Source: a virus. From it: a DNA stretch of 42,109 nt. Positions 1 to 42,092 of this stretch are shown here, one piece after another; the first letter of the stretch is position 1, and every line of letters starts with the position of its first letter. Under the pieces are notes generated by a model. That model did not search any database and was not told the origin of the DNA. It was given only the letters and a program-made list of their open reading frames with translations. The translations under genes were made by a program, and so were the position numbers. Location of the stretch: positions 1 through 42,109 of the IMG/VR virus record IMGVR_UViG_3300009102_000068. One strand, written 5' to 3'.

Positions 1-222
1 AGAGCGCGCCGGGGTGTATGCCGGGATATGTGCCGGGGTGCCGGGTTTCAGGATTGACACGGCGCCAGGGCGCCGAAGGGCTCACTACATTTTGGGGTGT
101 ATCATTTTGTGACAATATCCTTAATTCAGGGAGCCCGCGGCTGCCGGCGGGAGTAGCAGCTGTTAATTTTCCGGGCGGGGCGCGAGTATAGGTCGGAGAA
201 CAATTCCTGGCGCAGCTTTTGT
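1..222. other. Non-coding left edge, before the pentamer array
   Basis: No credible gene is visible. Positions 20-49 hold a short run of six five-base blocks each starting with G (G at 20, 25, 30, 35, 40 and 45), the same phase rule as the array further right but without the 8-base core. GGCGCC occurs twice (61-75), and a CCCGC/GGCGGG stem is possible around 133-151. A weak minus-strand promoter is conceivable (TTGTCA at 115-110, 17 bases, AAATGT at 92-87). It would point leftwards out of the window, towards the packaging genes if the molecule is circular. The -10 match is poor. Confidence 0.5.
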
Positions 223-1495
223 GGGTTGTGAAGTCTAGCTGTTTCAGGTCGAGGATTGCCGCAAGGATATGGTAGGTGACGCCTTGATTTGCCGCAGGGG
301 CGAGGGGTGTGAGGGTCAGTCTAGTCAGGCCGCAAGGTCTTGTCGATGGCCGGTTGAGTTGTGACCTGGATAGCCGCAAGGGACCGTGGTGCCTCGTTTT
401 GTTATGCCGCCAGGTTTGGACTCGGATAGTTCAGGCTTGCCGCAAGGTCTTGGTCGGGAGCTGTCGCGCATGGCCGCAGGGTCCTGGTTGGTGACGCCTC
501 GATTAGCCGCAAGGCTTTGGTCTGTTTTGTATGGCCGCAAGGGTCCGTCACGTTCGCTTCGATTTGGATTGTTCAGCCGCAGGGGCGTGTCGAGTTTTGG
601 TGGGGCGTGTTAAGTTTTGCCGCAGGGATTCGCCGGGTGGAGTCATGTTAGGCCGCAGGGGCTTGTTCTGTTTTGTGTGGCCGCAAGGGGTCGGATAGTT
701 TAGTAGTGAAACGTATTGCCGCAGGGGCGCGTACAGCGAAGTCTTGCCGCAAGGGTGAGTCCGGCACAGTCGAGTAAGATCCTGCCGCAAGGGTCGGTGC
801 AGGGGTGTGTGGTTCGGTCTTGCCGCAAGGGTCCGTAAAGCCGTGTCGGGTTCTGCCGTGTCCCGTCATGCCGCAAGGTGAAGGCTTGTGATGTTTTGAT
901 TTAACTCGTCTTGCCGCAAGGGTTTGTCCTGGTTCGGGAAAGTGGGGCTCAGTTACGCCGCAGGGATTCGTAAAGTTCTGATGGGAATTGTTCCGATTTG
1001 CCGCCAGGGCTTGCCGTGAGGCGTCTTGGCTTGCCGCAGGGGTATGAACAGTCTCGTAGAGCCGCAAGGGTTCGGGCCGGCTTATCTGGAAATGTCCAGC
1101 CGCGCGTAGAAACGTTGTGTCCAGCCGCAAGGTAGGGAATTATTGAGTTTCGTCCTGCCGCAAGGATCCGGCACAGCCGCGTCACGCACCAGTTTCGTAT
1201 AGCCGTAAGGCGCTGTCATGCTCAGTTCAGACCAATCCCGTTCCGCCGCAGGGTCGTGTAGGATCTAGTACCGATTCGCCGCAGGGGTTCGTACAGTCAA
1301 TCCAGGATCGTCCAGCCGCCAGGATCCGTATGGTCTAGTGCCGATCTGTTAAGCCGCAAGGGCCTCGTAGAGTACCGCCAAGTCAGGTTAAGCCGCAGGG
1401 TCGCGTCCCGGAGCATCGCGTTAAGCCGCAGGGCTCTGTTGAGTGTTGTCGGGTTAAGCCGCAGGGCGCCGTAAAGTCTTGTGTTGTTCTGCCTT
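223..1495 (+). repeat. G-phased pentamer array with 34 GCCGCARG cores
   Basis: The core is 8 bases: GCCGCAAG (16 copies), GCCGCAGG (13), GCCGCCAG (3), GCCGTAAG (1), plus one degenerate copy at 1099. Cores start at 258, 291, 329, 373, 406, 439, 473, 506, 534, 576, 619, 652, 680, 718, 746, 784, 822, 870, 913, 957, 1000, 1033, 1061, 1099, 1124, 1157, 1202, 1245, 1278, 1315, 1353, 1392, 1425 and 1458. Each core is followed by four to eight blocks of five bases beginning with G, most often GT. By hand parsing, roughly 180 of about 187 blocks start with G; most exceptions start with A (ATCNN). Eight of the 33 intervals depart from the grid, mostly because of a four- or six-base block. The blocks themselves differ in sequence, so this is not a simple tandem repeat. 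The cores fall in all three reading frames of both strands, so it is not coding. Function is unknown. It could be a site for a protein or RNA that contacts one base in every five, or a structured non-coding RNA or ssDNA region. It lies downstream of the early operon, with G on the strand opposite to the mRNA. Confidence 0.92.
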
Positions 1496-1560: not shown

Positions 1561-1854
1561 CTACTCTTTCTTCACAGTGAAGCCATCACAATTTTCCAGC
1601 CACACGGGGTCGAAGTTGAAAGGCCAGTTGAACCAACCGCCCTTGATCCCGGTGGCGGCACCCTTGATGTTCAGCTTCGATGCTCCTTTTTCAAGCAATC
1701 CCACTGGCGCTGTACGGCCCCCGCCGAGCATGGAAAAAAGTTCGGTCACGGGGTTGGCTTGGCCTATGTCTGGGTGGGCGCATTGGCTGTGATAGCTTCC
1801 AGGAACCTCGCGGCGATGCTGACAGGCGTAGCAGTCGAATTTCTTTTCACTCAC
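1561..1854 (-). CDS. Small Cys-rich phage protein, last gene of the early operon
   Basis: This 97-residue protein has CYAC near residues 8-11 followed by a C-A-H around 26-28, a plausible zinc site. The C-terminal half is rich in Trp and Phe (GGWFNWPFNFDPVWLENC), a pattern I associate with small phage proteins of unknown function. It starts with an ATGA overlap on the preceding RAMP-like gene, so the two are translationally coupled. No enzymatic motif is visible. It is the last gene before the stem-loop and the pentamer array. Confidence 0.75.
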   Translation of the reverse strand: MSEKKFDCYACQHRREVPGSYHSQCAHPDIGQANPVTELFSMLGGGRTAPVGLLEKGASKLNIKGAATGIKGGWFNWPFNFDPVWLENCDGFTVKKE

Positions 1855-2483
1855 AGCTTGTCAAATTCGATAACGTCGAACTTGCCTCCACCCATGGACC
1901 GACAGGATCCCAGGCCGTTCTCTTGGCCCAAGTGGAGCATCTTCAGGAGGTCTTTTTCGGTGAGCTTCTTCTGCCCTTCCAACAGCTTCAGCTCGAAGCT
2001 CAGTTCCGCGTGTCTAACGTAGTCGCATCGCTTCAGGATAGACCGTTTGCCCTGCGGTGTCATCACATGGCCGGCTATGTCGTCGTACCCGTCAGCTTCG
2101 TGCTTGTCGAGGAAATGAATCTCTCGAGGCCCAACGTGCAAGCCGTGTTGAATGATACCTTTAGAGCCCCGCGTTTTCACGGTTATCCCGAGGGTGGTGC
2201 CGCATTGGGAAAGCAGAGCTTCAACCTGGAAGTCTCGAATGTAGATGCCCTCGCCGTTCCTGCGGAAGCCGCACCACACTTGCTCGGTTTCTTCCTCCAG
2301 GTCGAGTACCTTTTCCTTTTCCTCCATCGGCTCCCGTGGCATTTCTCCCTTGCTCTCGATCCACTTTTCAAGGATCTCTCGGGACTTCGGCTGGCCGCCG
2401 AAAATCTTGTCCCGGAACATGATCGTGACCCGGTAGATAACGTACAGTTTGCTGTCTTTGAAGATTGATTTCACTGTTTTCAT
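1851..2483 (-). CDS. Phage protein with RAMP-like (Cas5/6/7-type) glycine-rich loop
   Basis: This is a 210-residue protein. The start is the ATG at 2483, which overlaps the previous stop as ATGA, rather than the upstream ATG. What is seen: an N-terminal strand ending in FGGQP; a central segment GIYIRDFQVEALL; then a stretch with TPQGKRSILKRCDYV and a beta strand ELSFELKLLE; a helix LTEKDLLKMLHLGQ; and a terminal loop GLGSCRSMGGGKFDVIEF. The last pattern (G-x-G-x2-R-x2-G-x-G-x-F-x-V) is the glycine-rich loop typical of RAMP-fold RNA-binding proteins such as Cas7, Cas5 and Cas6. Similar proteins are, as I recall, widespread and uncharacterised in early regions of phages. It lies about 350 bases from the pentamer array. 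Inference: it may bind RNA or ssDNA. A CRISPR role is not indicated, because no cas genes or CRISPR array are present. I am fairly sure of the loop pattern and unsure of the fold. Confidence 0.7.
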   Translation of the reverse strand: MKTVKSIFKDSKLYVIYRVTIMFRDKIFGGQPKSREILEKWIESKGEMPREPMEEKEKVLDLEEETEQVWCGFRRNGEGIYIRDFQVEALLSQCGTTLGITVKTRGSKGIIQHGLHVGPREIHFLDKHEADGYDDIAGHVMTPQGKRSILKRCDYVRHAELSFELKLLEGQKKLTEKDLLKMLHLGQENGLGSCRSMGGGKFDVIEFDKL

Positions 2484-2689
2484 TGACGTTCTCCTGTTGC
2501 TCCCCATGGTTCATATCGCCACCGGAAACAAAGCCGGCAGACTTTCAGGACTATCCCGTTCGGGAGCTGACAAATCGGGATCTTCCCTTGTTTTTCCTGG
2601 CAATCAAAGCACTTCAGCAGCGGATCGCTGCCGTTGGATTTCCTCTCATTGGGCTTCGTCCTGTATCGAGGATGGCCTTTTTTCTTCAT
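2480..2689 (-). CDS. Small zinc-finger-like protein
   Basis: This 69-residue basic protein has CFDC and, about 20 residues later, CRLC: two CxxC knuckles that should bind one zinc. The N-terminus (MKKKGHPRYRTKPNERK) is strongly basic, which fits nucleic-acid contact. The start at 2689 was chosen because it forms an ATGA overlap with the preceding gene; the ATG further upstream lies inside that gene. It overlaps the RAMP-like gene in the same way and so belongs to the coupled early operon. No family was recognised. Confidence 0.75.
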   Translation of the reverse strand: MKKKGHPRYRTKPNERKSNGSDPLLKCFDCQEKQGKIPICQLPNGIVLKVCRLCFRWRYEPWGATGERQ

Positions 2690-4213: not shown

Positions 4214-4566
4214 AAGGCCGCCCCCGGATCGTCGCGGCAGCCGCACCGTTCCACGGCCCGGACTTCCTGCTTTGTCTCCCGGTAGATGACGTTGACGTAC
4301 TGCCATCCGGTCCCATCGCATATCCCGCAATCCCGGTCAGGCTTCCGGCTGCGGTCAGGCTGTTGAATCATCAAATCCTTCCTGGCATCGTTCAAATGCG
4401 CGATTCTGGGGATATATTTACAATCCTCGATGGCCTTCATGGTCATGCCCTCAACGTCAGCCGGCGTGAACTTCCCATAGAATTTCAGGTATTTGGCTGT
4501 CTGCTTGTTCGTGAGTTGCTTATCGTAGGTATCCTCAAGCTCCATGACTGCCTCTACGGGGGTCAC
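4210..4566 (-). CDS. Possible helicase-loader-like zinc protein
   Basis: This is a 118-residue protein. The N-terminal two thirds is helical (TNKQTAKYLKFYGKF, then ADVEGMTMKAIEDCKY). The C-terminal part has CGICDGTGW and CGCR, a short DnaJ-like zinc module. It follows the replisome-organiser-like gene with an ATGA overlap. In many phages a protein of this build and position works with the replication initiator or helicase. That is inference from context; no ATPase motif is present. Confidence 0.65.
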   Translation of the reverse strand: MTPVEAVMELEDTYDKQLTNKQTAKYLKFYGKFTPADVEGMTMKAIEDCKYIPRIAHLNDARKDLMIQQPDRSRKPDRDCGICDGTGWQYVNVIYRETKQEVRAVERCGCRDDPGAAF

Positions 4567-5294
4567 TTGGCGCTCCTGCCCTCTATTTCCTTCAAATGCT
4601 CGTCAGGGGTCATCTTGGCCCTCGCAGGGGATCCTCCAGAGTTCTGCCGGCGAGAGAGCCAGTTGTAGATAAAGCGGCTCATCCCGCCGTAGGTTTTTCG
4701 TTTGGTGGGATTGTCGATGGCCCACTGTCGGCACTCCCGAATCTGCTGTTCAACGTCAACGCCTGTAAAGGTGACTCTCCAGCTCTCTACCTGGCTGCGG
4801 AAAATCGGACACTCGACTTCTTTGATGTTGGTGGGGAAAGTGACGAAAACGGCATCGTCTGGAGCCGAACCGTCAGCGGTTGGGCTCGGGACGTTATCTG
4901 TTCTTCTCCTATCTTCTCTATTCTCCTCTCCTCTACTCTCCTCTACTCTACTCTGTGGCGCCACGTTGGCGTCAGGCTGGCGCCGGCTTGGCGTCACCTT
5001 GGCGTCAGCCCGGCGCCGTTTCTCTATAAACCCAAGATCAATAAAGACTTGCAAATTCAGCTTTTTTGATAGACAAAGCACCCTTTCAAGGTATTGCTCA
5101 GAATCGGGTATTTTGCCCCCAGAGTCGGCGGCAAGCATCCAAAGGCACACAAGTTGGCCCCTTTGGGAGTCAGACAAGCCAATCCATTCCGGGTTCCGAA
5201 TCAGGATTCTGTGCAGTTTGATCCAGGGTGGTTGGCCCCGGTCTGAGCGCCAGGACTGCCAGCGTTTCCAGTTGACGATCTTGAGATATTCCAT
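4563..5294 (-). CDS. Replisome organiser / replication initiation protein
   Basis: This is a 243-residue protein. The first 90 residues (NWKRWQSW ... PPWIKLHRILI ... SDSQRGQLVCLWMLA ... GGKIPD ... LGFIEKR) match the winged-helix N-terminal domain common to phage replisome organisers. A charged, low-complexity linker (Glu/Arg-rich, about residues 110-135) and a C-terminal helical domain (residues 150-225) follow, a layout like DnaD-type proteins. The linker is encoded by a purine/pyrimidine-skewed tract at about 4913-4957 and repeated GGCGTCA words at 4967-5012, which could make its length variable. The ATG has a GAGG site five bases upstream. Expected role: binding the phage origin and recruiting helicase. 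Confidence 0.7.
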   Translation of the reverse strand: MEYLKIVNWKRWQSWRSDRGQPPWIKLHRILIRNPEWIGLSDSQRGQLVCLWMLAADSGGKIPDSEQYLERVLCLSKKLNLQVFIDLGFIEKRRRADAKVTPSRRQPDANVAPQSRVEESRGEENREDRRRTDNVPSPTADGSAPDDAVFVTFPTNIKEVECPIFRSQVESWRVTFTGVDVEQQIRECRQWAIDNPTKRKTYGGMSRFIYNWLSRRQNSGGSPARAKMTPDEHLKEIEGRSAK

Positions 5295-5537: not shown

Positions 5538-5765
5538 CTAAATTTCGACCCAAATAGAGTTATAAAGGCCCCTTCTTCGGCAGGACCGGCAACCGTGTAG
5601 CATCCTTGGCCTGGCGTACTGCGGGTTTAACTCAGCGGCCAGGATCTCGAACTGATCTCCGCAAAAGCAACACTTTCTCGCCGGCAGGAAGAAGCCCGGC
5701 AGCTCTATCGTCTTATCTCGCCGCCAGGCCCACCATGCGTGAAACCGTTTCCACAGCTTTATCAC
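5538..5765 (-). CDS. Small zinc-binding protein
   Basis: This 75-residue protein has a basic, Trp-rich N-terminus (MIKLWKRFHAWWAWRR). CCFC and CRSC are spaced about 25 residues apart and should form a zinc knuckle pair. It is coupled to the exonuclease gene by ATGA (5762-5765), so it may be an accessory to it; this is context only. Confidence 0.7.
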   Translation of the reverse strand: MIKLWKRFHAWWAWRRDKTIELPGFFLPARKCCFCGDQFEILAAELNPQYARPRMLHGCRSCRRRGLYNSIWVEI

Positions 5766-6796
5766 AGCTTTGTGATCTCCAAAACGAAGGAGCCTTTGGG
5801 CTCGTTCTTCTTGTTGGCCTGGCGAAGTTCCTCATAGGCTGCCACGGCCTTATCGGGAACATCGTAGACGGTTTTCTTGCGCCACGTTCCGTTGAGGATG
5901 AATTCGCCGGCCACGGTCTGTTCGCAGCCGTAAACAGCCTTCTTGATCTCTTTGTCGAGCTGCCCGAATTCCTTGGCGGCTTGCTTCAGTTCCTCTCGTC
6001 GGACCAGGGCGGCCTCAAAGGCGGGGTCAGTGATAACTTGCGCTCCGGTATGCTTCAGTGGTGGGTTACAGACGCCACCGTAGAAGGGGCAACGCTGGCA
6101 CTCAGCGGGATCGTCAATGAATTCAGGTAGGGTTCCCGCCTCTTTGTGATCTAAGGCCTTCTCAGCGGCCACAAGGAAGGATTCGATCATATCCAGGTTT
6201 GGTTCCAGTTCCACCGGGATCGGCAGCGGAAGGCCGGCCATATCGAGCAACAGGATCCCCACGGGCTCACCGGCCCCCAAGAGGTAGGCCAGGAGTTGAT
6301 AGGCGCCAGGCTTCGTCCAGGGCGATAATTCTAAATCCTCGAACCGTTCGATTCTATTGGTCAAGAAGGGGCTCCAGGCTTTCACTTCGACGGGGATCCC
6401 GCCTTCGGTGCGCTCGAACCGGATCCGGGCGTCAGTTTTCCCCACGATGCACACCCGGCCCTTCTTATCCTTCAGCTCGAAACGCTGTTGTTGGGCGATT
6501 ACGTCGAAAGTGGGGTTTGAGTTCCGTCCGATCTGAGCCAGGTCGTTGAGTAGATCCCGTTCCCGGTCATTCCCCCGCCGGAATTTCGCCAGGGTATTGG
6601 CGTCGAATTCCGGCATCTTGTCTCCATCGGTCATTTCCAGCACCATGCGCCTCAGACAGTCCCTCTTGGAACTGGCATAGACGTACTCGCGCTTGTGGGG
6701 AGCTGATTGACCCTCGGATTCGATGAAGGCAATCCAGGCGTCTGAAATAATGTCGGCTATTCCCCGTTTACTTGGTTGGTCCGAAGTCAATGTCAT
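5762..6796 (-). CDS. Cas4/RecB-type Fe-S exonuclease
   Basis: This is a 344-residue protein. The PD-(D/E)XK core is visible: D122 in KTDAR, E137-x-K139 in VEVKA, and the QLLAY motif at 167-171. Four cysteines are placed as in Cas4/AddB-type iron-sulfur nucleases: C47 before the core, then C233, C236 and C243 after it (C-x2-C-x6-C). The enzyme should resect DNA ends. The neighbour just upstream is a candidate single-strand annealing protein, the usual partner of a phage recombination exonuclease. It overlaps that gene by 29 bases. Confidence 0.82.
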   Translation of the reverse strand: MTLTSDQPSKRGIADIISDAWIAFIESEGQSAPHKREYVYASSKRDCLRRMVLEMTDGDKMPEFDANTLAKFRRGNDRERDLLNDLAQIGRNSNPTFDVIAQQQRFELKDKKGRVCIVGKTDARIRFERTEGGIPVEVKAWSPFLTNRIERFEDLELSPWTKPGAYQLLAYLLGAGEPVGILLLDMAGLPLPIPVELEPNLDMIESFLVAAEKALDHKEAGTLPEFIDDPAECQRCPFYGGVCNPPLKHTGAQVITDPAFEAALVRREELKQAAKEFGQLDKEIKKAVYGCEQTVAGEFILNGTWRKKTVYDVPDKAVAAYEELRQANKKNEPKGSFVLEITKL

Positions 6797-10180: not shown

Positions 10181-13100
10181 CTACTTACTCTCGGATTGTG
10201 GGCCTCGGATCATGGTGTCGGCGGCTTGCCGCAGTTTACGGCCTTTGTCTTGGATGATCGCCAGTTGCTTCTGCTTTTCCTCGATGCTCAGTCCCTTGTG
10301 GTTCCGAATCCTGAAAGCATTGGCCTGTAGATCATCAAAGGCTTGCTCAAAATCCTTCTTGCGGAAAAACAGCTCTATTGGCGGGTCCATGGGATTAGTT
10401 TTCATACCAACTATCGCGCTGGCAAAAGCGGTTCCCGGTGAAGATGTGCGGCCAAAGTAATCCTCTTTGCCTGTGACTGAAGCCCAGAGGCGCTCAAACC
10501 CCCAACCGCCTTTCGTAACGCCGGGAATAGCAGGGGCGAGGCTTGGCATCGCAAACTTGTAGAGGTAATCAGAGACAGCCTGTACTTTCTCCTTCGTGCT
10601 GTCATTGGGGTCGTAAATTTCTGACCCGGTGAAGGCCGAGGTATTCAGCATGACTTCGGCAATCGCACGCAGGGGGCCGGCGTAGCCTGGCGTCCCTTGC
10701 AGGATTCCAGTGGCCCCGGTTTCTCCAACATCGCCCCACGGCAAAATGTAGGTCAAATCCAGGAACATGAGCTGCCCGTACTTGTCTTTGTACGGAAGCA
10801 AGAGGGCCTTCGGTCCCAGGCCAAGCGGATTCCCTTTCATCCTATCGGGCTGGATTCTCTTGATAAAGGCCATTTGTTCTTCGTCAATGCCCATGGCCAG
10901 GCGCGCACCTTCCTCCATGGCGTAGATAGTGGCAACGAGCCCACCCAGGCGCCACGGGTGGGTGATGCCCGTTTCGATGATCTGCGGCAGAGCCTTCCAG
11001 GTAAACGTGATAAAGGGGGCTCCCACGGGTGAGGTTCTGGCCCACTCCACAAACGGCGGTACTTCCGTGTAATCAAAAAGGGCTTTCTGTGCCGCTTGGG
11101 CCGCAGCTTTCGGGGTAGCTCCGTTCTCCGTTTCCTGAATGAATTTAGCCAGCTTGAACCATGCTTCCTCGCCCTGGTAAATCTTCGCGGCCCTCTGGCC
11201 GACTTTCCAGCTTGAAGGTCGGATCTTGCCCAATCCCTCGGCAATCTCGCCCTTTGCAAAATGATCGGCCATGCCGGCGATCCGGTCATAGAATCCCCCA
11301 CTTGTCGAATTCCAGGCGTCTACGAGCTGGTTCAGCTCACCCTTGGCAAAGGTGGTGCTGAACAGGCCTTGGGCCTTGGCAGCATCGTAGTGTGGACCCT
11401 TCTGTTGCCACAGCTCCATCATGGCCTTGCTGTAAATGTCTACCCGCCAGGGCGGTAGGCCCGAGAGGTAGGCCAGCATCGTATTGGAAACCATGTTCCG
11501 GCCATGGGTGGCGGGGTTAAAGATGACCTTGTTGAACTTCCATTCGCTGACCAAAGCTCGGGTGACTTTGTGGTATTGGCCCCGATCTTTGACCATTTGA
11601 TTCAGGACCGAGGCGATGTACTTATTGACGTACTTCCCTGACAGCCGCCCGAGTTTCGGGTCTACCGGCATCTTCGTGTACTGGTTGGGATCCTTGCCTA
11701 GATCCCAAAATTTCTCGGGCTCTAAAGTCCAATCCGGGTGGTCGGCTACCTTGTTGAACAGCTTGGCAGTCTCAACATCGTGGATGATCTGCGACAGGCC
11801 CTTGGCAACGGGATAGCCAGGCTCCTTGATCTCGCCCATCAGCACCCGCACTTCCTCGGGAATATCCTCGCGCTTCTTCCAGCGGTCCATATCCATCCGA
11901 GTCGGTTTCTTGGCCCCGTACTTGGCTAATTGAGCGTCATAGTCCACTTCCCAACGCCGGTAGAGGCGAGGCATATATTTCCCGTAATTCTTGAAGAAAG
12001 TTTCCTCGCTCAAGAGGCCCTGCAAGGCGGCCTGGGCTCCCCATGAATCGAATCTCGCCCTGGCAATTTTAACGGCGTCGATAGCCTCGTTCCATCGTGG
12101 GTTGTCGCGCATGGAGCGCAAGTCGGCCTCGGTGGCTTCTCCCCGCAACATATCCCCCAATTTCAGTTGCTCGGCTTGAGTGAGCTTTTGGGTCAACTGT
12201 TGGCCGAGTTTGAAGGATTCAGTAGCGCCCTCGCTGGTTTTCCATTCCCATTGTTGGTGAGCCTCGACCCACTCAGGCGGCTGCCGGTGTCGGGTGAGGA
12301 AAAGCCACTTCAGAAACTCCGGCAGCGGCTTCACCACAAGGCCGTAGGGTTCCTCGGTGCTGAGTAGGTATTTGTGGAGCTTCGGGCCGTATTCCTTCGA
12401 CCAAACATCCATCATAAAACCGATGGGGTTGGCGTGGAGAGTAGACTGACCTGGAGGCCCTTTCGGTTTCTTCGGCTTATCGGCCTCTACGAGTTGGTCA
12501 ATCAAGCCCTTCACGGACTTAGCCATGGTGCCGGCCAGGCGTGGCGCCGATTTCTTCTGATCGCCCAATTTCCAATTCAGGTAGGCCTTGGCAAAGCCGG
12601 CAACCTCTGTGGTAATCGGGCTTCCAGGCTTGGATGCTCCTTGAACAAGGCTATCAACGTAATCTGAGGCGTGGCTTGTGGGACCGGCTTTTTCCTCCTT
12701 GGCTACTGTCGGCGGCTTCTTGCCCTCCGGCTCCACCTTGGGTTCTTCAGAGTAAAGCCCTTCCCTTTCTTCCTTGGGTACTTCCGGCTTCACCTGTGGC
12801 TCCGCAGCGAACAGGGGCGGTTCTGCCTCACCAAACATACCGGCTTGCTCGGGATCGTTCCGCAACAGCCGTTCTTGCTCCGCTATGGCGTCCCGTAGGA
12901 TCTTCTCTCGCCGGCCAAGATCCTTGATGAGCTTCCTGCCGGCAGCCGTGTTTTGATCCGGCCTGGCGCTTAGAATGTTCTCCAGCTTCGCCTTGTCGTC
13001 GGCCAGTTTGTTCTCACGCTCGAAACCTTTTGCGCCTACGATCTCCACCTGGCGTTCAGGTTTGACGGTGGGCTCTGCTTCTTCTTCCGGTGGGCTTTTC

Positions 13101-31532: not shown

Positions 31533-31733
31533 CTACATCGTAAAAGAGACAATAATCCAGAACACGATGATGAATTTATTTACGTCAAAGGTGTTCATGG
31601 GGTAAGTGTTGACCAGATAGCGCCACTCCAAGTGTAGGCCTCCGTGGCGCTCCCGCCAGTGGGTTACATCGCCAACAGGGGGTACGGCAGCGTCGAAAGT
31701 CCAGTCCCTTGAGAGCGTTCCATCACCTAACAT
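31533..31733 (-). CDS. Short protein with C-terminal membrane segment
   Basis: This is a 66-residue protein. The last 16 residues (KFIIVFWIIVSFTM) are strongly hydrophobic; the rest is soluble and Trp-rich. It starts in a TAATG overlap. A tail-anchored membrane protein inside the virion cluster is unusual, but the frame and overlap are convincing. Confidence 0.55.
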   Translation of the reverse strand: MLGDGTLSRDWTFDAAVPPVGDVTHWRERHGGLHLEWRYLVNTYPMNTFDVNKFIIVFWIIVSFTM

Positions 31734-33751
31734 TATGCGGGGTCGATCTCCGATATTGGGTTGCCAAAGGTGGTCGTAACCGCTGCGGTCCAGGCCACGG
31801 TACTGTCATCTTCCTCGAACACCGAGAGCGTTCCGGCAACGATAGCTCTGCGGTTTCTGATGGCCCGGAAGGCGTCTTGGATGGTGCGGCCACCATCGGA
31901 GCCGGCCCCGATGTTCCGGGCCAGGATCCTGTCGGCTATCTCCCGCCCGAAGTCAATATCCATGGCATCGGCTGTGATCGCATCGGTGACGAAGCCGCCT
32001 ACGGGGGCGTAAATCAACACCAAATCGTTGACTGCCGTGGTGAAAATACCGGGGTCGGCCTTCAAGGTCACGCCCCTAGAGCTACCCACATAATTCAAGA
32101 TTGTGCCGTAAGTCTTTTGAAATCCCGAGGTTTGGTCGATAATTACGATCAAGCAGTTGTTATAGGCGTCATCATCCAGGGATCCACCGTTCAGGGTAAA
32201 TAAAGTCTGAGAAATGTGGGACAGTATGGTGGTCTGAAGCATGAGCGTTCCACCAAGGGCCTCGCCCGTACTCCCACTGGCATCGTGATCGGCTTTATTC
32301 TCATCCCAAACAGCGTCAGCTATGTCGGCGGCTGTCGGGCCTCCCCCTCCACTGTCAGCGATGGCCTGGAGCGAATCAGTGGTCCGGTCAAAGACTTCCG
32401 TTCCATCGTCAGCAATTTGGTCGAAAATGGACCCGGAAACCACGGCGGTAGAGAAGGTCACGGAACGCTTCGTCAGCTCACTGATAATCAAGCCAGCCGA
32501 GTCTGCGGATCCGTGAGCGGATACAACGTCCTCGTCCCACACCGCGTCAGCGATGGCTTCAGCCGTGGCTGCCTGGAAGCCGAGGGTTACGTTGATGGTG
32601 CTGTTTGCCAAGAAAGAACCGGCGCTATCGTCAATCGAAACCGGAATCGTCCACCATCCCCCGTTGTCGGTAGTCGCTCCACTGACTGTGGCCTGGACAA
32701 AGTTCCCGCCGCCTCCGCTTTCTCTGGAAAGAAGGATCTTGTCGTTGACCGCCAGCTTGCCAAGAATCTCGTCGGCGTTGAAGCCGGTATTCGTGGTGGA
32801 GCTGATATAAATTTCAGTGATCGCAACGAAACTACCATTGTCGGCCTTTACGTCACCCGAGCCCGGATCCGTAGCCCCGGTGTCGGTATCCCATCGGTAG
32901 GCCGCCGTGATGAACCCACCACCCGAGAGAGGCACGTTCTCCAGGGCCTTGGCTGTGTACCGGGCCAGCCCTTCACCGTCATCCTCAAGTATTTCATTCC
33001 ATAGAGCGCCGGCCACTCCCGGAATAGCTGACGGGTCGTAATTCACGGCAAACAGGTGATCCAGGTGGATGGCAACCAGGCCATCGTCAACCTGCGTTCT
33101 GACCTGGGCCGTGGAAATGTCGTTGAAATTGGTGCTGGCCGTAAGGATCCTGACAGTCTCAGCCCACACAGTTGCAGATATGGCGGCAGCAGTAGGATCA
33201 TTGAAATTGGTATTCGCGGTCAGGATTCTCACTGTCTCGGACCACACAGCGGTAGATATGGCCGCAGCGGAAGGATTGTTGAAAGAGCCGACCCACAGAG
33301 CCGGGGCCGCTATGTCGTCAATGCTGGCCACGTTCACATCGGGAAGGCCTCCAGAAAGGACCACGGCACTCGCCAGGAAACTGCCCACGCTGACACGCCC
33401 ATTGGCATCGAAGCCAGCGGCTCCATCGCCAAAGAGCGCATCGAAAATCACTTGCGGAAGCACCCACCAACTTTTCCAAAACGGCAGGAAGGTTGCGGGA
33501 TCCTGCACGTTCAGAAGCAGCTCGCCCACGGTGTCGGTGTCGGCTACCGTGAAGTCATCGAAGTACCAACCGTCCGAATCGTGGGTGGAGTTCCCTGTTT
33601 CGCTTGACGCGGCGTAGGCTGCCCCATCCTTGGAGATTCGGCGCAAGGCCTGGGTGATGGTCAGGGCTTCTTCCTCGGTTACTCCGTCAGTGGCGTCTAG
33701 GAACGGCCCGAAACGGATGCTCTGTATGGTGCTTTGACGTAGAAAGGGCAT
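31733..33751 (-). CDS. Large appendage/tail protein with VW(S/D)E repeats
   Basis: This is a 672-residue protein. A unit of about 27 residues (AAAIS-x2-VW-x-ETVRILTA, then TNFND) is repeated in tandem around residues 165-215. Further AVWDE boxes follow near 400 and 480 (DAVWDED, DAVWDEN). Such repeats are found in phage baseplate or fibre stalk proteins. The N-terminus (MPFLRQSTIQSIRFGPFLDATDG) and the rest are beta-rich and acidic. A host-contact or decoration role is inferred. Confidence 0.62.
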   Translation of the reverse strand: MPFLRQSTIQSIRFGPFLDATDGVTEEEALTITQALRRISKDGAAYAASSETGNSTHDSDGWYFDDFTVADTDTVGELLLNVQDPATFLPFWKSWWVLPQVIFDALFGDGAAGFDANGRVSVGSFLASAVVLSGGLPDVNVASIDDIAAPALWVGSFNNPSAAAISTAVWSETVRILTANTNFNDPTAAAISATVWAETVRILTASTNFNDISTAQVRTQVDDGLVAIHLDHLFAVNYDPSAIPGVAGALWNEILEDDGEGLARYTAKALENVPLSGGGFITAAYRWDTDTGATDPGSGDVKADNGSFVAITEIYISSTTNTGFNADEILGKLAVNDKILLSRESGGGGNFVQATVSGATTDNGGWWTIPVSIDDSAGSFLANSTINVTLGFQAATAEAIADAVWDEDVVSAHGSADSAGLIISELTKRSVTFSTAVVSGSIFDQIADDGTEVFDRTTDSLQAIADSGGGGPTAADIADAVWDENKADHDASGSTGEALGGTLMLQTTILSHISQTLFTLNGGSLDDDAYNNCLIVIIDQTSGFQKTYGTILNYVGSSRGVTLKADPGIFTTAVNDLVLIYAPVGGFVTDAITADAMDIDFGREIADRILARNIGAGSDGGRTIQDAFRAIRNRRAIVAGTLSVFEEDDSTVAWTAAVTTTFGNPISEIDPA

Positions 33752-39587: not shown

Positions 39588-41111
39588 TCAACTTGTCGGG
39601 TATCGGTTCAATCCTTTTCTTTGCCGCCCATACCGCTTTGGCATACGCCTGGCTTGCCGGCTGCGCTTCTTGTTCTTCGCTGTCTCCTGCATCACCTTCA
39701 TCATAGCCTCATTCGGATCCTCGATGGGCTTAATTATCTGCCGCAACCGGCTATCGAAGGGCTCGGCCTTCGGCGCATAACGGCTCTTGAGCCCGTATCT
39801 GCAAGAATCGTAGGGATCGTCACCGTCAATTTTCATCACATCTTCGACGTTTTTATCGTCCCGGATCATCATGGGAAGGCACTCGATGATCTCCTTACAG
39901 TGGCTCCCGATTATCCAGCGCCCATCCCTCATCATCTGGTACATCAGCATGGCCCCGCCGATCCGGTCATTGTTGGCTGGCCGGCAGATAGGGAACTTCG
40001 CTTCCCGGAAAATCATGTTCATCTGATCCGCAATCGTGTCAGGCCCCTGACGCCGGGCAAACGCATCTGGCGCCAGGTACACCGTCTGGATCTTCTCCTT
40101 CTCCTGACTCCCGCTCCGCTTCACGATCTCGTAGGCCAAATCCTCCGGTGTGAGCTTGGCCTTGACCAGTTCCCGATAGGTGTAAGTGGTCCCTGAATCG
40201 CTCTGACAATGCCAATAAACCGCTGAAGGGTGGATATACCCCCAATCCACAGAAACCCACCTTGGCCACCAGGGCTTCATGCCCATTTCCTCTGGCCGGC
40301 AGCACATCGTCGCTCGATCAAAAATATCGAAGTACACACCCCCCAAAACGTCCCAACGCCCTTCCAAGAGAGCTGCCCGTAGGTGGTTGGGTAGGGCTCT
40401 GAGCTTCGCCTTGTAGACCTCATCGTTGGCGTAAACAGGGTTATCTGAGAGCAAGGCAGGGATGAATTCGTAGTCGTCCGGGTCGTAGGCTGCCGCTTGC
40501 CCCTCATCCATACCCGCCGGCGGCACCTTGTCCAGCCACATGGCCTTTACCCACCCAAAACCCGGTCCTACCGGATTGGTGGCTCCCGCCATCTTCCCGC
40601 CCATGTGAGGGCTCCGGTTCCACCCTGAAAGTGTCACCCACTGAGCCAGCGTGAACTGGGTCAGCTCGTCCCATCCCACGAAAGCCCACTCACCCCCCTG
40701 ATACTGCCAAACGTCATCATCCGTCTTGCAATATCCGAACTTCGTTACCGATCCATTGTGCCAGGTAACTATCTGTTTTTGAGTGTTATAGCTCTTGTAG
40801 GCCTCCGGTGGGATAAGGCGCCGAAAATTCAGAATGATCGACGCTTCAAGCTCAGGGAAGGTGCGGCGTAGCACCATCGTATTGATGCCAGCGTGGACGT
40901 TGGCAGCTAAATCAACCGCCTCCATCAGCAACGCCCATGACTTACCAGGCCCCGCAGCTCCCCCGAAAAGGCGGTACTTCGACTCTGAATCGTGGAATAC
41001 CTGTTGCTTGGGAAAGGGCTCGTAGGGCTGCAAAAGCTCAACACCCTGCCGCTTATCCTCGATAAGCCGCTCTGTGCCTGACTTTCCTGCCGCTACAACG
41101 GGGTCTGACAT
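39588..41111 (-). CDS. terL: Terminase large subunit
   Basis: This is a 507-residue protein. Walker A is GGAAGPGKS (50-58), Walker B is FVGWDE (144-149), and the nuclease domain begins with VDWG (Asp289). It packages DNA into the head by ATP-driven translocation and cuts it. GGGAGG precedes the ATG; the gene overlaps the previous one by 19 bases. It lies upstream of the portal as usual. Confidence 0.92.
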   Translation of the reverse strand: MSDPVVAAGKSGTERLIEDKRQGVELLQPYEPFPKQQVFHDSESKYRLFGGAAGPGKSWALLMEAVDLAANVHAGINTMVLRRTFPELEASIILNFRRLIPPEAYKSYNTQKQIVTWHNGSVTKFGYCKTDDDVWQYQGGEWAFVGWDELTQFTLAQWVTLSGWNRSPHMGGKMAGATNPVGPGFGWVKAMWLDKVPPAGMDEGQAAAYDPDDYEFIPALLSDNPVYANDEVYKAKLRALPNHLRAALLEGRWDVLGGVYFDIFDRATMCCRPEEMGMKPWWPRWVSVDWGYIHPSAVYWHCQSDSGTTYTYRELVKAKLTPEDLAYEIVKRSGSQEKEKIQTVYLAPDAFARRQGPDTIADQMNMIFREAKFPICRPANNDRIGGAMLMYQMMRDGRWIIGSHCKEIIECLPMMIRDDKNVEDVMKIDGDDPYDSCRYGLKSRYAPKAEPFDSRLRQIIKPIEDPNEAMMKVMQETAKNKKRSRQARRMPKRYGRQRKGLNRYPTS

Positions 41112-41701
41112 TTTATCCTCCCAAGTTTGAACAGATACACCCGGTTTCCCTCTACGATCTCCAGACAGTCAGAAAACAGAAGTTCAGCCTGATAGACTCC
41201 CTTACAGTCCCTTTCAGGCTGGCGTTCCCCATTCTCCCAATGCTCGTAGTCGTGCCAGGTCGTAACACATTTCCACATCGGCAGCCACCCGGCCACCCGG
41301 AACACCCCCTGCCCCTTGTAAACGATCAGAGCGTAGTTCCGGCTCAACTTCGGCTCTATGGCATCTTCCTCATGGAGAAACAACCGCCCATCCAGCCAGT
41401 CCGTAGCTCGAACCTCGCAGTTATCGCCCACATCAGCCTCATGGCGGTTCCGGTAATCAACGTAAGTCGTCCGGTCCAGTGGCGGCATCCCGAAGGCGTG
41501 TCGCAGACAGAACTCTGACACCGTTCCCATCCTGCGATGCCGCTTGCTGTCCGGCAAAGGCTGGCCCCACTTCCCCTTCCGCTCACCATGGAACTCCGTC
41601 ATCGTATCCGCAATAAAAACCGCTTCACGGACCTGTTCGATGGGTAGCTCCATGTTCCCCCGAATATCTGGCGGCAACCTCGGTTCAGGGCCTCCTTTCA
41701 T
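41093..41701 (-). CDS. Conserved terL-adjacent protein, possible nuclease
   Basis: From the ATG at 41701 (GGAGGG just upstream) this is a 202-residue protein. A start at 41653 is also possible. The C-terminal half has NCEVRATDWLDGRLFL, then YALIVYKGQGVFRVAGWLPMW, a pattern I associate with terL-adjacent phage proteins of restriction-nuclease-like fold. E-x-R stands where E-x-K is usual, so activity is uncertain. Confidence 0.55.
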   Translation of the reverse strand: MKGGPEPRLPPDIRGNMELPIEQVREAVFIADTMTEFHGERKGKWGQPLPDSKRHRRMGTVSEFCLRHAFGMPPLDRTTYVDYRNRHEADVGDNCEVRATDWLDGRLFLHEEDAIEPKLSRNYALIVYKGQGVFRVAGWLPMWKCVTTWHDYEHWENGERQPERDCKGVYQAELLFSDCLEIVEGNRVYLFKLGRIKCQTPL

Positions 41702-42092
41702 GCGTTCCCTCCACCCCCGCACCCTCTCGCTGTATCGTCCTGAAATTCAACACTCCCAACGCGCTTTTCAAATTCGTGATCGCACTCGCGTTCTCAGAAC
41801 ACGCGAACCCGCTGTCCTGGTAGAACTCCAGCCGAATCAACGCCGCCTTGATAACTGTCTCCACAAACGCCCCATTCGGCTTCTTCCTCTCCGCTCCCCG
41901 CCCAAGCGGCCCATTCTGCCAACTGATCTCAAGCCCTACCGCCTTTACCTTCCCTCCCGCCGGCTTCCCGTCCTTCAGCTTGTTCTCCAACACTTCAAAA
42001 TCTTGCAACATCCCTTTTTCCCTCCAGATAATCGGAACCCTGATCCCACGGCTGCGACAGAACCCGTCTACCGCATACCGCAACCTCACCAA
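41685..42092 (-). CDS. Conserved phage protein at the right edge, possibly truncated
   Basis: The ORF has 135 residues from a TTG at 42092, with GAGAAGG nearby. The frame stays open to the window edge, so the true start may lie outside. The C-terminal half (SWQNGPLGRG, NGAFVETVI, LEFYQ, CSENASAI, GVEGTHE) is a recurrent phage pattern of unknown function. Position before terL could suggest a small terminase, but no helix-turn-helix is obvious. Confidence 0.6.
   Translation of the reverse strand: MVRLRYAVDGFCRSRGIRVPIIWREKGMLQDFEVLENKLKDGKPAGGKVKAVGLEISWQNGPLGRGAERKKPNGAFVETVIKAALIRLEFYQDSGFACSENASAITNLKSALGVLNFRTIQREGAGVEGTHERRP

Follow-up and report, generated by a model that had tools for sequence, protein, structure and literature searches.

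We conclude that positions 223 to 1495 of a 42,109-nucleotide stretch of viral DNA (the window, i.e. the whole of the stretch analysed) very probably (about 0.91 by our estimate) serve a VIPR-like system as its guide-RNA array, in a compact design that departs from the published form. VIPR (Viral Interference Programmable Repeat) is described in a 2026 preprint (bioRxiv 2026.04.26.720920; PMC13142463), which reports phage RAMP proteins acting with guide RNAs of alternating GGY/NN pentamers. According to that source, the guides bind double-stranded DNA by pairing of their NN positions and leave out one target base between pairs, which is usually at the wobble position of a codon; VIPR silences rival phages, and some guides target other VIPR systems. 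In the preprint, the guide RNAs (vrRNAs) are ~100 nt long, contain 9-16 pentamers and end in a structured 3' tail; seven types are distinguished, and the array consensus is worded as GGY/NN or a 'related consensus' (PMC13142463). This preprint was the one match in our literature search.

The five-base phase of the array, the neighbouring RAMP gene, the linkage of the two in relatives and the code matches between the relatives L146 and L271 together lead us to propose that the window holds a VIPR-like system. The phase, the core grid, the RAMP prediction and the gene-array linkage were computed directly, as were the reciprocal perfect matches, which are those of relatives. The features concerned are as follows.

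1-222, plus strand: leader upstream of the array; 1-107 are ~81% identical in a related phage contig, L133
223-1495, plus strand: putative guide-RNA array, ~34 units, each an 8-nt core GCCGCARG then 4-8 G-initiated pentamers (from autocorrelation, the interval grid and the same design beside homologous genes)
258-265, plus strand: first of ~33 cores, GCCGC plus a phase-resetting ARG
291, 329, 373, 406, 439, 473, 506, 534, 576, 619, 652, plus strand: other cores, from the parse
680, 718, 746, 784, 822, 870, 913, 957, 1000, 1033, 1061, plus strand: other cores, from the parse
1124, 1157, 1202, 1245, 1278, 1315, 1353, 1392, 1425, 1458, plus strand: other cores, from the parse
506-679, plus strand: units 506 and 652, with identical putative decoded guide xTTxCTxTTxTG, from the parse
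822-869, plus strand: longest clean unit, 8 pentamers; putative decoded guide (protospacer strand, x = skipped base) xCCxAAxGTxGGxCTxGTxCCxAT, register from L146/L271
1561-1854, minus strand: ORF of 97 aa that separates the RAMP gene from the array; possible accessory gene
1851-2507, minus strand: predicted Vipr-like RAMP protein gene, 218 aa (from fold matches, weak Csm4 profiles, a Gly-rich loop and homologues in L136, L141, L146 and Mae-JY09)

In the mechanism that we propose, transcription of the plus strand would start from the leader and run toward the RAMP gene, which is convergent with the array; processing at the 8-nt cores would release guide RNAs with 4-8 pentamers each. Subunits of the Vipr-like RAMP would then be arrayed along the RNA, each occupying one pentamer and recognising its constant G, and the last two bases of each pentamer would pair with DNA, one target base being skipped between pairs (an xNN code). 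By analogy with the published systems, the bound RNP would block transcription and rival genes would be silenced; the likely purpose is the silencing of genes of competing phages or satellites, including the rivals' own VIPR genes.

Five-base phase and core grid of the array

On the plus strand of 223-1495, the autocorrelation of G relative to 300 dinucleotide-preserving shuffles gives z = 10.5 at lag 5 and 7.9 at lag 10; with the cores masked, the values are 12.9 at lag 5, 7.9 at lag 10 and 4.5 at lag 15. There is no peak at lags 3 or 6, and below lag 12 only lags 5 and 10 stand out. A lag-5 peak comparable to that of G is absent for A, C and T within this region (T reaches 2.2 after masking). 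Coding sequence was rejected as a reading of 223-1495, the lag-3 signal being absent.

The cores number 34 with a loose pattern and 33 with a later parse, and their spacing is exactly 8+5n in 25 of 32 intervals (binomial p = 2.5e-12 at one fifth). Structurally, the core is a further G pentamer (GCCGC) to which an insert of three bases, ARG, has been added, so that the phase is reset. The sequence GCCGTGAG at 1013 is a doubtful core; the 63-nt unit at 1061 apparently hides one whose 3-nt insert has been lost. Block starts are G in 186 of 194 parsed blocks and in 178 of 186 clean five-base blocks (~96%), counts to be read with the parser's preference for G starts in mind, the autocorrelation of G being independent of the parser. 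T makes up 55% of position 2 of the pentamer; positions 3-5 come close to random (<=0.14 bits). In a scan of the whole window and ~140 other loci, all of the window's high-scoring array-like stretches fell within the array. The initial annotation, which was the starting point of this work, had described a five-base phase, 34 cores at spacings of the 28, 33, 38, 43 or 48 type, about 180 of 187 blocks starting with G, and diverged blocks in which phase rather than sequence is conserved; our computations bear out this description, with the small corrections given above, including the survival of the lag-5 peak after dinucleotide-preserving shuffling.

Its functional suggestions are supported in part. 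The proposal of a structured RNA is unsupported, because dinucleotide shuffles fold better than either strand of the array (z +2.1 and +3.1), and weaker-than-chance folding is to be expected of an extended guide; Rfam gave no match for the array. Nothing was found in support of a packaging or replication element. The suggestion of a ligand that reads one base in five comes close to our explanation, in that the RAMP is expected to bind one pentamer per subunit. The statement that no element of this kind had been described is superseded by the GGY/NN pentamer arrays of VIPR (PMC13142463).

The leader contains GCCGGGGTGTAT-like repeats and a palindromic GGCGCCAGGGCGCC element at 8-40 and 54-76. 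The alignment of L133 with the leader stops near window position 150, before the array.

The adjacent predicted RAMP gene and its linkage to phased arrays

The product of 1851-2507 is predicted to be a CRISPR RAMP. The ORF is intact in the window, and its start is more likely the ATG at 2483, which has AGGAGA before it. Its AlphaFold model is of low confidence (pLDDT 55); in a Foldseek search of the PDB with this model, the top matches were all CRISPR RAMPs (best E 6.6e-5, probability 1.00), the matches overall were almost only CRISPR RAMPs, and the strong ones were all Csm3, Csm4 or other Cas7-type proteins. VIA-align gave a Z of 11.8 to the Csm-complex chain 9g9i_G and of ~10 to Csm3 chains, and the viral model that fits it best carries the annotation 'Cas system-associated RAMP superfamily protein'. 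Csm4 profiles match the product weakly (E 0.0006-0.009 and 0.0035), and searches of Pfam and PHROGs gave no significant match for the 218-aa sequence. With these fold matches and a C-terminal glycine-rich loop, GLGSCRSMGGGKF, the predicted protein agrees with the make-up of VIPR, which has a single RAMP with an RRM core and such a loop. The initial annotation saw the five-base phase of the array but missed this adjacent gene, which is key to the function.

The RAMP gene and a five-base G array adjoin in at least five divergent phages. Homologues of the gene occur in L136, Microcystis phage Mae-JY09 and L141, each adjoining a G-phased pentamer array on the opposite strand, with the array signal of Mae-JY09 being weaker (z about 2.9); when the ORFs of these three and the window were compared, the RAMP gene was the only one common to all four. 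The linkage was also reached from the array side: a search with only the DNA pattern of core plus phase retrieved L146, in which the gene starting just past the array is homologous to that of the window (35% identity, E 8e-21). Of the 18 intervals between the 19 cores of the L146 array, 15 conform to 8+5n. Contig L271 has a RAMP gene 96% identical to that of L146 and an array of its own (26 cores, 19 of 25 intervals on the grid). The pentamer consensus is GG(C/G)NN in L146 and L271, and G-t-y-N-N in the window.

No near relatives of the RAMP gene were found in plasmids or in 84,980 bacterial and archaeal genomes, and no array was seen in the terminase-based phage relatives L128-L135 (partial contigs). 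The small ORF at 1561-1854 has no family match and is absent from the other loci compared; L141 and Mae-JY09 have in common a weakly similar upstream gene (E 1e-5). A core-only pattern scan of IMG/VR gave 119 stretches, nearly all without five-base phase, and a phased pattern scan of bacterial genomes likewise gave 119. The one lookalike from the bacterial scan that was followed up, in Streptomyces, was rejected as an array of the same kind, being a repeat without a RAMP gene: at L244:1980-2220 (Streptomyces sabulosicollis), GTCGTGCCAGGCCGCAGG repeats mimic the pentamer-core phase between two histidine-kinase-like genes, probably by coincidence. An intergenic tandem array of the 10-mer CCCCGCAAGG lies at L249:7080-7240 (Gemmatimonadetes MAG).

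Putative guides, target matches and the pentamer code

The guides of the window and of L146, L271, L136, L141 and Mae-JY09 were compared with the DNA of these phages, with 24 decoding rules applied in turn. Two matches stand out under the published rule, i.e. the last two bases per pentamer with one skip. Guide 21 of L146 (nine pentamers) matches the L271 RAMP gene at 18/18 positions and its own copy at 16/18; shuffles of this guide attain at most 16/18, a value reached by 15 of 3000. Reciprocally, guide 55 of L271 (seven pentamers) matches the L146 RAMP gene at 14/14 and its own copy at 13/14, with its shuffles attaining at most 13/14 (3 of 400). Both target sites lie within the same few codons (VGVTELLGGMPKTEDL), one being read on the sense and the other on the antisense strand, and the skipped bases at both are all codon wobble positions.

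At the L146 guide 21 site, positions 4-5 match at 18/18, positions 3-4 at 14/18 and positions 2-3 at 9/18; the register in the L146/L271 RAMP-array family is therefore G-x-x-N-N. The perfect match fills precisely one inter-core space and ends at cores, which indicates that the cores delimit guides. L146 and L271 thereby provide matched natural targets of the VIPR kind, with an NN match and a one-nucleotide skip. Guide matches with at least 14 positions and at most one mismatch numbered 7, compared with 1.1 for shuffles; those beyond the reciprocal RAMP-gene matches look like chance, as do the two that were checked.

Under many skip rules, the window guides gave nothing beyond chance in 1.1 Mb of viral DNA; no target was found for them in relatives, and none of them matches the window's own RAMP gene or that of L136. 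A scan of IMG/VR with guide 822 gave three chance-level matches, on contigs without an excess of other guides. Matches of 13/14 for guide 576 in the L133 and L130 contigs were rejected as targets, as they sit in unrelated genes. Because no target was found for any window guide, the decoding of the window rests on homology. Units 506 and 652 differ at four positions, all of them at non-guide positions 2 and 3 (probability 0.038 for such placement).

It is conceivable, though unlikely, that the array is decayed or vestigial and no longer works in the window phage. Seven of its 32 intervals are off the grid, the core at 1061 seems to be without its insert and no target was found; however, 178 of 186 five-base blocks still start with G, the RAMP gene has an uninterrupted reading frame, and in a decaying array the phase should be the first thing to go.

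We regard as less likely still a VIPR-like array with a denser code, in which three or four N per pentamer would pair, such that 4-8 pentamers would specify 12-32 bases. In the window one base in five alone is strictly constant, short units make little sense if only two bases of each pentamer pair, and there is a weak excess for NNN plus one skip relative to mixed viral DNA (z 2.2 and 2.7). The denser code is at odds, however, with the L146 target, which is fully matched at positions 4 and 5 only, with the restriction of the differences between the duplicate units 506 and 652 to positions 2 and 3, and with the lack of signal for NNNN rules.

A protein-binding RNA or DNA read at one base in five without guide function, e.g. 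a TRAP-like decoy or an assembly or packaging signal, would be compatible with a fixed phase and little conserved sequence, and RNA is bound periodically by RAMP proteins; we nevertheless consider it very improbable, as hypervariable positions yield perfect reciprocal gene matches in relatives and the partner gene encodes a RAMP, not TRAP or a terminase, with no NAG triplet phase in the array. Low-complexity or pentanucleotide-microsatellite drift, or an assembly artefact, has a negligible chance of being correct: slippage can produce simple five-base units, but Tandem Repeats Finder, which is blind to this array because its units have diverged, detects no five-base array here, the phase resets at every core, and the same design stands beside homologous genes in independent contigs and one complete phage genome.

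Relation to known systems and the wider genome

The window phage encodes a single predicted RAMP and, beside this gene, a non-coding pentamer array with constant and variable positions; its relatives L146 and L271 display the one-nucleotide-skip xNN code, wobble skips and guides against other VIPR genes. The window differs in its scaffold, which is one strictly constant G (G-t-y-N-N) and not GGY, in having ~34 short units of 4-8 pentamers in one array with 8-nt cores, whereas vrRNAs are ~100 nt and tailed, and in a protein without a profile link to the type II-like Vipr. Type II VIPR (the SUSP1 / P. fulva clade) has GGY nearly throughout, 9-16 pentamers per vrRNA and a structured 3' tail; the window instead has G in 96% and then T in 55%, nearly all of its units are 4-8 pentamers long, and it has an 8-nt core but lacks a folded tail. 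Besides the missing profile link, the low-confidence RAMP model and the failure to find targets for the window's guides, further points count against a VIPR-like reading: four-pentamer units would specify 8 bases, too few for a unique target, and with one constant G the scaffold is less strict than the GGY of the preprint. The window design may already be covered by one of the seven VIPR types.

As a positive control, type II-like Vipr proteins from L079, L027 and L017 were found to be homologous to Felixounavirus proteins, and their model matches RAMPs. In phage wV8, which has a type II-like Vipr homologue, GGTNN/xGTNN tracts flank the gene on both sides, and the wV8 record notes direct repeats at the positions of the GGTNN tracts. 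In an hhalign comparison with the three type II-like Vipr proteins, no profile link to the window RAMP family was found (probability 1.8), though both models match RAMPs. Classical GGYNN arrays lie beside the phrog_4652 protein (Felixounavirus homologues) at L027:9247-9550 and 10257-10545, L079:7535-7750 and L017:2593-2830; that of L027 has a two-base slip after GGAAC/GGATC about every 10 pentamers. Our array pattern also matched L145, L143 and L142 (IMG/VR 3300031787_000115, 3300032050_012421 and 3300031857_000664, respectively), which have a different pentameric array. At L145:2420-3080, and with it in L143 and L142, G/C-phased NNGCG-like pentamers are broken by GGTGGG...CCCACC hairpins, possibly representing guide RNAs with tails of another VIPR type.

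With Class 1 CRISPR-Cas systems (Cas7/Csm3/Csm4), the window shares a predicted RAMP fold, the alternation of short constant elements with variable guides, and periodic unpaired positions along the guide. The constant element of the window is, however, 8 nt, compared with 20-40 for CRISPR, and its guides have an internal five-base scaffold, with a period of 5 rather than 6. The array has only the 8-nt core in place of near-identical repeats of ~20 nt or more, and neither Cas1/Cas2 nor other RAMPs were found among the window genes scanned. TRAP (trp RNA-binding attenuation protein) is similar in that a protein ring reads RNA at ~five-nucleotide spacing, but it requires ~11 NAG triplets and a TRAP gene, of which none are present in the window, and the variable bases of window-type arrays carry information. 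Pentamer positions 2-5 are not AG-enriched and the neighbouring protein is a RAMP; a TRAP site was rejected as the identity of the array for its lack of NAG phase.

VIPR is newly reported and possibly represents a pre-CRISPR form of RNA-guided DNA recognition. With the window/L146 RAMP family, it comes to include a divergent lineage of RAMPs as well as compact arrays of many guides that resemble repeat-spacer arrays. The one-base-skip code is independently confirmed from natural sequences, L146 and L271 guides matching each other's RAMP gene perfectly and their own imperfectly. The family also shows that one G in five can be all that is left of the constant scaffold, a point relevant to which bases of the RNA the protein actually reads. 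More tentatively, and at somewhat less than even odds, the system may represent a VIPR type of its own, in which short gapped guides are present by the dozen, an 8-nt core delimits them and resets the phase, and a single constant G is left as scaffold in each pentamer; related phages would use it in conflicts in which they attack each other's Vipr genes. Such a type would fall naturally between single vrRNAs and CRISPR arrays.

With respect to the wider genome, L133:1-4422 holds both the left end (1-107) and the right end (41699-41978) of the window, ~4.3 kb apart, a spacing that suggests a circularly permuted genome of ~46 kb, some 4.3 kb of which would be absent from the window. The recognised genes of the window contig are on the minus strand, with the terminase at 39588-41111. 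A Cas4-like exonuclease (phrog_1706/1990; 5762-6796, minus strand) and a DnaD-like helicase loader (4563-5294, minus strand), i.e. replication or recombination genes, lie some 3-5 kb from the array. At 33123-33284, within a 672-aa ORF (31733-33751, minus strand), a 78-bp tandem repeat is present in 2.1 copies.
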